Position numbers and translations under genes: made by a program
From: a virus
Reading direction: 5' to 3' (one strand)
Length of the DNA stretch: 20,137 nucleotides
Virus record (IMG/VR): IMGVR_UViG_3300021389_000210
Location: 1-20,137 of that record
Part shown: piece after piece, positions 2,086 to 7,470 of the stretch
Numbering within the stretch: the stretch's first letter is position 1
Layout of the letters: every line of letters starts with the position of its first letter
Notes under the pieces: model-generated
Databases searched by the model: none
Seen by the model: only the letters and a program-made list of their open reading frames with translations
What the model was told of the DNA's origin: nothing

Positions 2086-2574
2086 TTATCTCTTACCTGC
2101 TGGTGTGAAATAAAACCCAATTATAGCTCCCAAAGTGGTGATCGAGACGAGGGAGATATGTCCTGTAGTGATTGACGTTGTAAGCCCTTGGTCGATTGGC
2201 ATTGTGAACAATCCCCACAAGATTGAGATGTCTTTTGCTTGCTCTGGAGGGACGAAGGTGATAAGCTCGACTTGAGGGTAGATAGTGCAGAGGATGGAGA
2301 TTGTAGCAAAGTTGAGCATCCCGATAAGAGCAATGATCCTACGAGTAGTACGAGTAAATATGGTAGCTTCTGGGTCATTACTAGCGTCTCCGAATATAGC
2401 TTTCTGGAACTCAAGATCAGCCTCTTTCATCTGCATATCTCGAATTAGCTCTCTTTTAGCCTCTGCTTCCTTGGCTTCGTTGCGACTCTGCACAGCCCCA
2501 CCAAGGATCTTTAACATGGAACCCATGCCTGTTGCGCCTAAGGTAGACAACAACATTGTTATTAAACCAAACAT
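2086..2574 (-). CDS. Multi-pass membrane protein, holin-like, last gene of late operon
   Basis: This is a 162-aa membrane protein with a moderately hydrophobic Gly/Met/Leu-rich N-terminus (about 2-27) and a strongly charged helical segment (30-58). Two clear hydrophobic segments follow at about 79-99 and 138-156, with a basic tail. This layout resembles small three-segment phage holin-type proteins. Identity beyond that is not established. The start has GGGAG five bases before the ATG, and the gene begins 9 bases after the previous stop. It is the last gene of the leftward operon. A second reading frame inside it encodes a lipoprotein. Alternative views are a virion-associated membrane protein or a spanin partner. 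Confidence 0.7.
   Translation of the reverse strand: MFGLITMLLSTLGATGMGSMLKILGGAVQSRNEAKEAEAKRELIRDMQMKEADLEFQKAIFGDASNDPEATIFTRTTRRIIALIGMLNFATISILCTIYPQVELITFVPPEQAKDISILWGLFTMPIDQGLTTSITTGHISLVSITTLGAIIGFYFTPAGKR
2121..2378 (-). CDS. Nested lipoprotein, candidate outer-membrane spanin (Rz1-like)
   Basis: This 85-aa frame is wholly embedded out of frame in the 2086-2574 gene. It starts MTQKLPYLLVLLVGSLLLSG and reaches the lipobox Leu18-Ser19-Gly20-Cys21, followed by a Ser/Pro/Gln-rich mature part. GGAG lies 9 bases before the ATG at 2378. A longer version starting at 2414 exists, but the signal peptide and ribosome site favour 2378. Short, low-complexity lipoproteins nested in another lysis gene are the classic Rz1 arrangement (lambda Rz/Rz1, T7 18.5/18.7). 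After signal peptidase II cleavage it would sit in the outer membrane and could pair with the TM/coiled-coil protein at 2584-2964. Caution: hydrophobic runs can appear by chance in a frame opposite a membrane segment, and here they do overlap one. Confidence 0.55.
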   Translation of the reverse strand: MTQKLPYLLVLLVGSLLLSGCSTLLQSPSSALSTLKSSLSPSSLQSKQKTSQSCGDCSQCQSTKGLQRQSLQDISPSSRSPLWEL

Positions 2575-2583
2575 AATCTCTCC

Positions 2584-2964
2584 CTATAATAGCGGATTCT
2601 TAGGCTTACCTATAACTTCCACTCTGTTACTAAGCTGATCAACTTGTCTTTGAATTGCTTGAACTTCTGTCTCAAGCCCTCGAATGTCTGCTTCAATTTC
2701 ACCTGTGCTTGGGATAACAATCCCTGCAACTTTGTCAGCAGTGCTTGAAATTTGACCACGTAGCTGTTCAATTTCTTTTCCAATTTTTCCAATATCATTA
2801 TCTTCAATCCTCGTTTCTAGCTTGGTAAGCCTAGATTCTAAGTACGTAGCGTCTGTAGACTCTTCAAGAGCAGCTACCTTTTCTGTTAAAGTTCCGTAAC
2901 CTACCGCAGCTCCTCCAATAGAGGATGCGATACCTATCCATAAGGCAACGTCTTGTGCATTCAT
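2584..2964 (-). CDS. N-terminal TM plus coiled-coil protein, possible inner-membrane spanin
   Basis: This 126-aa protein has one hydrophobic segment at about residues 5-24 (VALWIGIASSIGGAAVGYG). A long Glu/Arg/Leu heptad-like helix follows (about 27-85), then a short break (IVIPSTGE) and a second helical stretch (91-118). One N-terminal membrane anchor followed by coiled coil is the architecture of inner-membrane spanins such as Rz. Topology cannot be fixed from sequence, and other TM/coiled-coil roles are possible. The ATG overlaps the upstream stop as ATGA (2961-2964), with GGAG 11 bases before it. The neighbours are envelope-directed, which fits a lysis role. Confidence 0.65.
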   Translation of the reverse strand: MNAQDVALWIGIASSIGGAAVGYGTLTEKVAALEESTDATYLESRLTKLETRIEDNDIGKIGKEIEQLRGQISSTADKVAGIVIPSTGEIEADIRGLETEVQAIQRQVDQLSNRVEVIGKPKNPLL

Positions 2965-3764
2965 CGTAATATATTCTCCAAGTTATCTTCAGGGTTGTTA
3001 GCGTATAAATAGTACATGGCGCTCTCTACACCTACATTGTGCTGATTCCAATCTAAGTTGAGCTGCGTAGGCAGCAAACTATCTATAGAAACTGCTGTGT
3101 TTGTGAAGAAATCCATAACTGTGTTAGTGTTCATAAATGATGCGGCTATGGTGTCAATAACGACACTATCTTGGGCATAACCCTCAATCATGTTCTTAGT
3201 CATACTTGCTTCTAACATACCTGAGATAGACGTGTTGAACTTCTGGCGGCTAGACTCTTTGATTGCCCTAAGGTCATTCTCAGTAGCGTAGGCTTCTGCA
3301 TTGATCTTAGTCTGCTGGTCTCCATCTACAATCATGTCGGCTATGCTTGTGACTGCCGCTATTTCGCTCGCAGCTTCAATTAGAGACTCTTTCTCTTCCT
3401 CGTATGTACCTTGCTCTACGTCAATCATATCGTTCAGTAGAACGGCTGTGAGAGCCTCTGGAGTGCTGTTCACTAATCCATCAGCATAGGCTGTGTTAAA
3501 GACATCCATCTGTTCTGGTGTCAGTTCATAGCTAGTGCCGTCATCATTATTGTATATAATGGTGTTGCCGTCTAACATAGACTGTTGAGTCCATTGGATG
3601 TATTCCTGAATGTTCTCATTTATCACAGTCGTAACGGTAGACGTGGCGTTTCTTAGAGCTGTCATATCGAAGTCGTTTTCGCTTGCATTCGCTGTCTTTG
3701 GTAATAATAACAGGAGCAACAGGGACAAACTCAGGGTTGTTACTATAGTATTCAAGTGCTTCAT
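2961..3764 (-). CDS. Exported protein with poly-Leu signal peptide, unknown function
   Basis: I start this 267-aa protein at the internal ATG at 3764, not the upstream in-frame ATG at 3803. From 3764 it opens with a textbook signal peptide: MKHLN, then a Leu-rich core with seven Leu in a row, and an ANA cleavage site near residue 27. AGGA lies about 10 bases upstream and GGAG directly abuts the ATG. The mature part is acidic, helical, lacks further membrane segments and has no motif I recognise. Its first 149 bases overlap the end of the upstream exported-protein gene in another frame, and its stop overlaps the next start as ATGA. It should act in the periplasm or be virion-associated after export. 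Confidence 0.75.
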   Translation of the reverse strand: MKHLNTIVTTLSLSLLLLLLLPKTANASENDFDMTALRNATSTVTTVINENIQEYIQWTQQSMLDGNTIIYNNDDGTSYELTPEQMDVFNTAYADGLVNSTPEALTAVLLNDMIDVEQGTYEEEKESLIEAASEIAAVTSIADMIVDGDQQTKINAEAYATENDLRAIKESSRQKFNTSISGMLEASMTKNMIEGYAQDSVVIDTIAASFMNTNTVMDFFTNTAVSIDSLLPTQLNLDWNQHNVGVESAMYYLYANNPEDNLENILR

Positions 3765-4179
3765 CTCCAATGAGTCCTTTAATTGGGCAAGGGGTCTGTG
3801 CATTACGCATAGCCCACCAAACCCTAGGGTCTTGACACATAATACTGGTAGCTGCCACTTTTAGCCCCAAACTAGATAACTGACGTGAAAGCTTTAAACG
3901 CTCACAGTTCTCATCTACCTTCATCTTAGACGTACTAAAGCCTATCTGAAGGGTCTGCATACCCGTACCTGACGTAATTATACAGGTATCTGTTTGGTAT
4001 GTGGGAGTGGAAGGAGCTACAGCAGTAGTTACTGGCATACCCTCTTGGTTAACGGTAGTTTCGGTTGTGGTTGTGATTGTTTCGGCCTGTTGATTAGTAC
4101 CAAAGTCACCTACATTAGCTTCACTGGCTAGTGTTGGTGTAGCTATTAGGACTAAACAAGCTACTATTAGTCTCTTCAT
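3616..4179 (-). CDS. Exported cysteine-rich protein, conserved T7-like phage type
   Basis: This 187-aa protein has a signal peptide (MKRLIVACLVLIATPTLA, cleavage near residue 18). A Thr/Gln/Pro-rich linker follows (about 30-62), then a compact domain with VDENCERLKLSRQL (88-101) and CQDPRVW (115-121). Six cysteines in the mature part (66, 92, 115, 131, 165, 185) would allow three disulfides in an oxidising periplasm. Secreted proteins with the DENCxRLKL and MCQD patterns are familiar to me from T7-like phage genomes, where function is unassigned. The last 49 or so codons overlap the next gene. The start lies inside the preceding gene by 59 bases, and its ribosome site is weak, so it may rely on translational coupling. 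Confidence 0.75.
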   Translation of the reverse strand: MKRLIVACLVLIATPTLASEANVGDFGTNQQAETITTTTETTVNQEGMPVTTAVAPSTPTYQTDTCIITSGTGMQTLQIGFSTSKMKVDENCERLKLSRQLSSLGLKVAATSIMCQDPRVWWAMRNAQTPCPIKGLIGDEALEYYSNNPEFVPVAPVIITKDSECKRKRLRYDSSKKRHVYRYDCDK

Positions 4180-6552: not shown

Positions 6553-6678
6553 CTACACCTTTTTCTTTAAATACTTAGCTTTGTTATTGACTTTTTTACC
6601 TGATTTCTTGGCTTCTTTTTTAGCAGCCTCTACACCTTGTTTAGTGTAAGCGTATTTTTTATTACCGACTGTAGGCAT
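6553..6678 (-). CDS. 41-aa lysine-rich microprotein
   Basis: This is a very small gene between two close neighbours: 2 bases after the previous stop and 2 bases before the next start. It carries AGGA 8 bases before its ATG. The protein opens MPTVGNKKYAYTKQGVEAAK and continues as almost pure Lys/Ala/Gly. It has about 15 lysines in 41 residues and is predicted to be helical or disordered. Short proteins with the PxVGxKKFxYTxxGxxAAKKEA pattern are familiar from marine phages. A DNA-binding or condensation role is inference. The tight spacing and good ribosome site make it a real gene. Confidence 0.75.
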   Translation of the reverse strand: MPTVGNKKYAYTKQGVEAAKKEAKKSGKKVNNKAKYLKKKV

Positions 6679-6680
6679 AA

Positions 6681-7046
6681 TTATGTCCTGTATTTAGCTG
6701 TTTTTTCAGCTATCTTTTTGGGTTGTTTTGAAAACTGCTTACCAGCAGCAGTGTCTTTGCGTTTTTTAGCGTTGGTGGCTTTTTTCTCTGCAATAGTTAA
6801 AGACTGTCTAGCTTTCTTAGGTAAATACCTAGAACCTTTTTTACCAGTATCGCCCCAGTCTTCTTTAGTCCACTTAGCTAATTTATTAGTAGACTTTTTA
6901 GCGCCTGAGTACCCACCACCTGAGTCTTTGTAGTATTTTACAGCAAGCTGCATGGCTCTAGCTGAGTGTTTACCACCCATCTTAGCCTTAGCCCTAGATT
7001 TGGCTGCTGACCATTTAGCGGGATCACGTTTTGTAGCTGTAGACAT
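6681..7046 (-). CDS. Basic protein with DUF5872-like motif, 121 aa
   Basis: This is a Lys/Arg/Ala-rich protein. Residues 6-75 hold the sequence pattern DPAKWSAAKSRAKAKMGGKHSAR..A, AVKYYKDSGGGY, NKLAKWTKEDWG and RYLPKKA. I associate this pattern with the DUF5872 family, known from phages and large eukaryotic DNA viruses. No function is established for that family, and the assignment is from memory, not a search. The C-terminal 40 residues are a low-complexity basic tail. AGGAGG lies 10 bases before the ATG, which overlaps the upstream stop as TAATG. Sitting between the two terminase genes in a run of basic proteins, it may bind DNA during packaging, which is inference. Confidence 0.7.
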   Translation of the reverse strand: MSTATKRDPAKWSAAKSRAKAKMGGKHSARAMQLAVKYYKDSGGGYSGAKKSTNKLAKWTKEDWGDTGKKGSRYLPKKARQSLTIAEKKATNAKKRKDTAAGKQFSKQPKKIAEKTAKYRT

Positions 7047-7249
7047 TAGTGCTTTGCCTCCTCAAACGGAAGCTCTTTTAATAAGCTTGCCATTGGTGAT
7101 TCTGTTGTTATCACGTCAGTGCTTGCACCATTATCTTTAAGAAACTTAACAGCAACCGACAGCTCTGCTGAGGTAGCCTCACCTGTTCTTACTCTAGCTA
7201 AAAGTTCTTCAGTAACTACCTCATGTAGCTCTTCTAATTTATCTCTCAT
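7046..7249 (-). CDS. Probable terminase small subunit (DNA maturase A-like)
   Basis: This 67-aa protein begins with an acidic helical N-terminus (DKLEELHEVVTEELLARVRTGEATSAEL) and continues SVAVKFLKDNGA. It ends with PMASLLKELPFEEAKH. The pattern LxxRVxxGxATxAELxVAxxFLKDNG followed by a short LPF(D/E)E tail matches small terminases of marine T7-like phages as I remember them. T7 gp18 is 89 aa and, as here, lies between the fibre gene and terL. It would recognise concatemer DNA and hand it to the large subunit. The start overlaps the upstream stop as ATGA with AGGTG upstream. The four small basic genes before terL are an insertion relative to T7. Confidence 0.65.
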   Translation of the reverse strand: MRDKLEELHEVVTEELLARVRTGEATSAELSVAVKFLKDNGASTDVITTESPMASLLKELPFEEAKH

Positions 7250-7470
7250 GTTACACCTGTTAATTTAATAAATTCAGCTAAACCCATTTCTTGCGCCCAG
7301 TAGACACAAGCACCACCTACAACTAACCATTTTATTTGTAGTAAGGTGCGGTTAATGCTATCTAGCATACTCCTAAGGTCTTCAGCGTTAGCTGTCAGGG
7401 TTCTAAGCTGCTCTTCGTGTAAGTCAATACGCCATTCTAAACGATCAACTTGAGATTTTAAATCATCCAT
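7246..7470 (-). CDS. Coiled-coil/TM protein, XhlA- or holin-like
   Basis: This 74-aa protein has an N-terminal coiled coil (LKSQVDRLEWRIDLHEEQLR and onward to about residue 45). It ends in one membrane segment, about 47-60 (IKWLVVGGACVYWA). The order of heptad helix, then INRTLLQIKWLVVGG, resembles the XhlA haemolysin/lysis family. T7 places its 67-aa holin gp17.5 at this same position between fibre and small terminase. A lysis role is therefore the best guess, though pinholins and accessory lysis proteins share the architecture. AGGA lies 8 bases before the ATG, and the stop overlaps the next start. Confidence 0.6.
   Translation of the reverse strand: MDDLKSQVDRLEWRIDLHEEQLRTLTANAEDLRSMLDSINRTLLQIKWLVVGGACVYWAQEMGLAEFIKLTGVT

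Follow-up and report, generated by a model that had tools for sequence, protein, structure and literature searches.

A nested lipoprotein gene, candidate o-spanin, within a holin-like membrane-protein gene of marine phages

Embedded o-spanins and the late region of the window

In the spanin survey of Kongari et al. (2018, PMC6139136) embedded o-spanins all lie within i-spanin genes, most of them at a similar place, and no spanin is listed for 91 of 677 genomes, 20 of these from cyanobacterial hosts. A 2025 survey of lytic proteins (PMC12596118) and the earlier survey (PMC6139136) both place embedded o-spanins in i-spanin genes and leave many marine and cyanobacterial phages without spanins, and LUZ100, a T7-like Pseudomonas phage, has been reported without them (PMC10134795). 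The literature searched yielded no earlier case of an o-spanin encoded within a holin-like gene, a provisional result given the partial coverage. Here, a lipoprotein gene inside a holin-like gene is described, which occurs in hundreds of marine phage contigs and has been overlooked by annotation.

The stretch of DNA analysed (the window) comprises 20,137 bases of a marine T7-like phage of bacteria (IMG/VR virus record IMGVR_UViG_3300021389_000210, positions 1 to 20,137). Its (−) strand carries a T7-like late region encoding tail tube protein B (phrog_457), internal virion proteins (phrog_805 and phrog_342), a tail fibre, the small terminase (phrog_891) and the large terminase. The large terminase gene is followed by genes for a 104-aa protein, for 187-aa and 280-aa proteins with export signals and for a 126-aa protein, and last comes the gene for a 162-aa protein, hereafter the host gene, in which the nested frame lies. 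The features at this end of the late region are:

2121–2378, (−) strand: nested lipoprotein gene, candidate o-spanin, 85 aa, +1 frame (translation, synonymous null, six-frame scan, relatives)
2316–2378, (−) strand: signal peptide (residues 1–20), lipobox L18-S19-G20 and predicted lipidated Cys21, codon 2318–2316 (translation)
2388–2391, (−) strand: GGAG ribosome-binding site, 9 nt 5′ of the nested ATG (anti-SD duplex −6.6 kcal/mol)
2086–2574, (−) strand: host gene, 162-aa multi-pass holin-like (3-TM) membrane protein (predicted; relatives)
2584–2964, (−) strand: gene for a 126-aa protein, perhaps the inner-membrane partner (predicted N-terminal membrane segment and coiled coil)
2581–2589, (−) strand: TTATAGGGA / TTATAGGGAGAG, with a likeness to the start region of promoters used by T7-type phage RNA polymerases, immediately 5′ of the host gene (weak)

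The promoter-like sequence is a weak signal, with one match against 0.19 expected by chance, and the GGGAGAG inside it doubles as the ribosome-binding site of the host gene. A second T7-promoter-like sequence, ACTATAGGGAAC, is present at 2031–2040 on the (+) strand, in or beside the non-coding end region. Within the non-coding end regions (1–600 and 1330–2080) short stretches such as atgcctctgcaagcagag recur, possibly as terminal-repeat or replication sequences. The late genes for the 280-aa and 187-aa exported products (2961–3803 and 3616–4179, (−) strand) overlap; their homologues stand beside the host gene in about 25–32 near-clade loci, and the second matches phrog_20531. At 7246–7470 on the (−) strand, the place of T7 holin gene 17.5, a 74-aa coiled-coil protein with a C-terminal membrane segment is encoded. 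It has 42% identity to a hypothetical protein of Roseobacter phage CRP-125, whose gene adjoins one resembling a 3-TM holin.

The first-pass annotation had called the host gene multi-pass and holin-like, and not an obvious Rz. The product is indeed predicted to be multi-pass and not an i-spanin, but its holin likeness is only weak. The closest described family, PF11351 (GTA_holin_3TM), was matched by 4 of 28 members with a best E-value of 0.021, below the curated cut-off, and the window's own host protein gave no PF11351 match; holin-like is therefore used as a working label. An AlphaFold model built from 40 sequences had a mean pLDDT of 61.7 and placed helices at residues 2–61, 68–98 and 137–156, with the segment between the last two helices possibly periplasmic at low confidence. 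A Foldseek search with this poor model returned no significant match. No nested lipoprotein was found in bacterial PF11351 genes or in those of the Roseobacter phages CRP-125 and CRP-361, the closest relatives in isolation, and the arrangement therefore belongs to this host-gene family and not to 3-TM holins generally. Among 50,697 phage records, no relatives of the host, nested or 126-aa protein were found.

Anatomy and conservation of the nested frame

Positions 2378–2121 of the (−) strand translate to MTQKLPYLLVLLVGSLLLSGCSTLLQ...PLWEL*, a product of 85 residues consisting of MTQKLPYLLVLLVGSLLLSGC and then a 64-residue Ser/Pro-rich tail. The frame is +1 relative to the host gene, spans 0.41 to 0.93 of its length and is preceded by an in-frame stop. 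An out-of-frame gene of this size, with a signal peptide, LSGC at residues 18–21 and a Ser/Pro-rich mature part, had been proposed in the first-pass annotation and is confirmed by translation, as is its own GGAG (2391–2388), 9 nt ahead of the ATG at 2378–2376. The n-region of the signal peptide is basic. Residue +2 is Ser and not the inner-membrane retention Asp, which is found at this position in none of the 149 relatives that keep the lipobox; by the rule from enterobacteria, absence of Asp at +2 favours the outer membrane. The predicted mature part is 65 residues long (Ser and Pro make up about 24% and 8% of it in the near clade), and no second or C-terminal membrane segment was found in the nested protein, whose end is a polar Ser/Pro-rich tail. 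A unimolecular spanin, which would carry a C-terminal membrane segment, was ruled out on this ground. Further Cys beyond that of the lipobox is present in 25 of 25 near-clade sequences and in a minority elsewhere; extra Cys is thought to dimerise spanins. When the 20 kb were scanned in six frames for lipoprotein-like starts (start codon, basic n-region, hydrophobic stretch and lipobox, followed by 25 or more residues), the nested frame alone was returned.

An open frame with a lipobox could be a mere by-product of a conserved host protein sequence, and parts of the frame are of this kind. Leu-rich membrane helices yield Leu/Ser-rich +1 frames, and the lipobox Cys is truly dictated, because host Met-Leu (ATG then CTN or TTR) reads TGC or TGT in the +1 frame. 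Since the Cys appeared in 100% of null draws and is forced in this way, its conservation is no evidence and was rejected as such. On this point the first-pass annotation, which counted loss of the Cys as refuting, is corrected. The remaining elements behaved differently when the host protein was kept fixed and its codons were re-drawn synonymously (2000 draws). The nested frame was open in 0 of 2000 draws under the codon usage null and in 0.2% under the permutation null, and lipobox, open frame and h-region occurred jointly in 0 of 2000 draws for the window, with the same outcome for nearly every representative. Applying one criterion with a relaxed lipobox pattern across all frames, a lipoprotein-like segment was detected in the +1 frame of 149 of the 152 distinct host genes (relatives down to 36% identity) and in 0 of 152 in the +2 frame and in each of the three antisense frames, against an expected chance rate of 0.0005–0.005 per gene.

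A first scan of IMG/VR returned 118 relatives of the host gene, and a Gammaproteobacteria MAG contig (L083, 36% identity) led to clade 2 with 197 relatives. Because a third codon position of the host gene is a second position in the nested frame, selection on the nested gene must suppress host-silent change. Observed over expected synonymous diversity in the near clade was 0.51 in the overlap versus 0.75 and 0.72 outside, with a minimum of 0.21–0.23 at codons 73–90, over the signal peptide and lipobox; the corresponding values for clade 2 were 0.61 versus 0.86 and 0.78. Circular-shift P values were modest because the gene is short, at 0.04 in the near clade, 0.04 in clade 2, and 0.08 and 0.22 in two other groups. 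Host-silent changes that create stops in the nested frame numbered 0 against 521 expected in the near-clade overlap and 30 against 4585 in that of clade 2, versus 742 against 577 and 4048 against 4904, respectively, 5′ of the overlap, these being counts over non-independent sequence pairs with a large contrast between regions of one gene. Substitutions in the nested frame were also more conservative than their synonymous alternatives. Within the clade-2 lineages L170–L176 and L207–L231, a host change turned the forced Cys into Trp, and the lipobox (LLGGC, QLVGC or QLAGC) is found six codons upstream instead. The lineage of L197, L201 and L203 has a poor lipobox, HAGC, which counts against a spanin.

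A chance open frame was rejected by the synonymous null, which fails in every clade, by the comparison of frames, and by the absence of silent stop-creating changes in the overlap only. It is further contradicted by the lowered synonymous diversity, by the lipobox that shifts position when the host sequence changes, and by the lack of such a frame in GTA_holin_3TM genes, both bacterial ones and those of CRP-125 and CRP-361, and its probability is regarded as close to negligible. The nested frame is a real, conserved gene, coding and under purifying selection, and a case of double coding, in which the signal peptide encoded in one frame holds constant the silent sites of a membrane helix encoded in the other. 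The comparison of homologues proposed in the first-pass annotation thus had the outcome expected of a true gene, with start, lipobox and open frame persisting and host-frame synonymous change suppressed over the overlap.

The start codon occupies different positions among relatives. The nested ATG precedes the Cys by about 20 codons in the clade of the window, by 31 in most clade-2 members (frequently with a strong SD, to −11.3 kcal/mol) and by about 52 in one set of T4-like relatives. Another T4-like set (L047–L080 and similar) has the nested ATG 5–14 nt (once about 43 nt) 5′ of the host ATG, giving tandem ATGs in two frames at the host gene start, for example ATGAT followed directly by ATG. 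The +1 frame of these loci is open over nearly the whole host gene, and ~85 residues precede the lipobox. An upstream in-frame ATG accompanies 31 of 31 distinct genes with the +1 frame open through the 5′ part versus 1 of 57 with it closed (Fisher P 6e-23, relatedness not corrected). With starts at about −20, −31 or −52, or shortly ahead of the host ATG, each of the 88 distinct clade-1 genes therefore offers an in-frame ATG before the lipobox. A missing start codon in T4-like relatives had been taken as counter-evidence and was dropped after this wider search. The predicted T4-like product, with 50–85 residues ahead of the lipobox, is unusual for a lipoprotein and counts against a spanin.

Lysis neighbourhood and candidate role

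Relatives of the host gene have lysis genes as neighbours. Six contigs (L006, L007, L009, L010, L011 and L024) have a gene for a Phage_lysozyme protein (PF00959, E 4.7e-6; phrog_7 endolysin, E 2.4e-14) that begins at the host stop codon, and the group of L027–L033, L116, L122 and L128 has one for a cell-wall hydrolase (PF07486, E 4e-16; phrog_938 endolysin) 0.3–1.1 kb upstream of the host gene. In L034, L035, L037 and L069 the host stop is overlapped by a 73-aa gene whose product has a membrane segment at its N terminus, a coiled coil and weak matches to three Rz-like spanin families (E 0.005–0.026). Neither a lysozyme nor a cell-wall hydrolase gene was found inside the 20-kb fragment of the window. 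T4-like loci carry, downstream of the host gene, two small phrog_18771 membrane proteins of 94–96 aa (e.g. L117:5899–6183 and 6643–6933). This pair is present in >70 loci, some on the same contig twice, and may be lysis proteins; the first has relatives in HTVC008M and in Methylophilales phage Melnitz.

The 126-aa protein may be the inner-membrane partner of the nested lipoprotein. Its gene stops 9 nt before the host gene, and the protein combines an N-terminal membrane segment and a coiled coil with a weak orientation signal. Its homologues are found with the host gene at 27 loci, immediately 5′ of it in some and some 1 kb away on the opposite strand in others; this conservation is confined to the window's own clade. 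Other clades have different TM and coiled-coil genes near the host gene, of mixed likely orientation. Several T7-like clade-2 contigs, such as L158 and L161, have the host gene between scaffold and capsid genes, with no TM and coiled-coil gene within 2.5 kb of it. No single i-spanin family accompanies the nested gene everywhere, which counts against a spanin.

Lipoproteins of lytic T7-like phages are usually spanins. Given its predicted anatomy, its position within the host gene and the lysis neighbours of relatives, the nested gene probably encodes an outer-membrane lipoprotein of the lysis system, the o-spanin of a two-component spanin, and the candidacy raised in the first-pass annotation fits both the protein and its neighbourhood. 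The nested product would be exported by Sec, then cleaved and lipidated at Cys21, and would pass to the outer membrane with its 65-residue Ser/Pro-rich flexible tail in the periplasm. After removal of peptidoglycan by the endolysin, the tail would meet the inner-membrane partner and the two membranes would be fused or disrupted. As the nested gene lies inside a 3-TM holin-like gene, holin-type and outer-membrane lysis functions would share one stretch of DNA.

A real outer-membrane lipoprotein could have another job, such as superinfection exclusion, receptor masking or regulation of the holin-like host protein; T5 Llp and lambda Bor are models for the first two. A real lipoprotein gene is compatible with such a role, no significant match to spanin families was obtained for the nested protein (best phrog_8971, Rz-like, E 0.23), and the host gene is not always beside an endolysin, being placed among structural genes in some T7-like contigs. 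However, the nested gene stands at the end of the late region in the window, relatives have a lysozyme gene abutting or a cell-wall hydrolase gene nearby, and no folded domain is evident in the short Ser/Pro-rich tail, so that another job is considered unlikely. Alternatively, the host protein itself may be the inner-membrane partner, the overlapping pair forming the full outer-membrane disruption unit and the coiled-coil neighbours being unrelated. The nested frame occupies the same part of its host gene as Rz1-type genes typically do of i-spanin genes (Kongari 2018, PMC6139136), the pair occurs without a nearby TM and coiled-coil gene in L158 and L161, and the host protein has the segment predicted at low confidence that could be periplasmic. 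Against this, the host protein is multi-pass and not type II single-pass with a periplasmic coiled coil, its model is poor, and TM and coiled-coil neighbours are present in many relatives; we hold this partnership to be very doubtful. A self-contained disruption unit, with the host protein as both holin and partner of the +1-frame lipoprotein, is a rather doubtful proposal. If true, it would be a spanin pair of an undescribed kind, with an origin independent of Rz/Rz1, and its carriers would be uncultured phages of the sea, both T7-like and T4-like.

The interpretation as an o-spanin would identify one place where missing spanins can hide and would give an independent origin of the embedded arrangement.

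Comparison with known systems

The unimolecular spanins of the T1 gp11 and roseophage SIO1 type share the lipoprotein signal and the lysis role, the latter predicted here, whereas the nested protein is without their C-terminal membrane segment. To the GTA_holin_3TM (PF11351) holins the host protein is similar in length and helix layout with marginal similarity (E 0.021), but it falls below the family cut-off and the PF11351 genes examined are without a nested lipoprotein. In the separated spanins PseT.2/PseT.3 of T4 the o-spanin is likewise outside the reading frame of the i-spanin, whereas the candidate described here overlaps a third gene. Compared with lambda Rz1 and T7 gp18.7, to which there is no sequence match, the embedding gene is multi-pass and holin-like and not an i-spanin (Rz), and it comes after the large terminase gene, while in T7 it is beside it. 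Like both, however, the nested gene encodes a short outer-membrane-type lipoprotein in the +1 frame of another late gene for a membrane protein, which it occupies from near 0.4 to near 0.9 of the length, and the lipoprotein has a Ser/Pro-rich tail.
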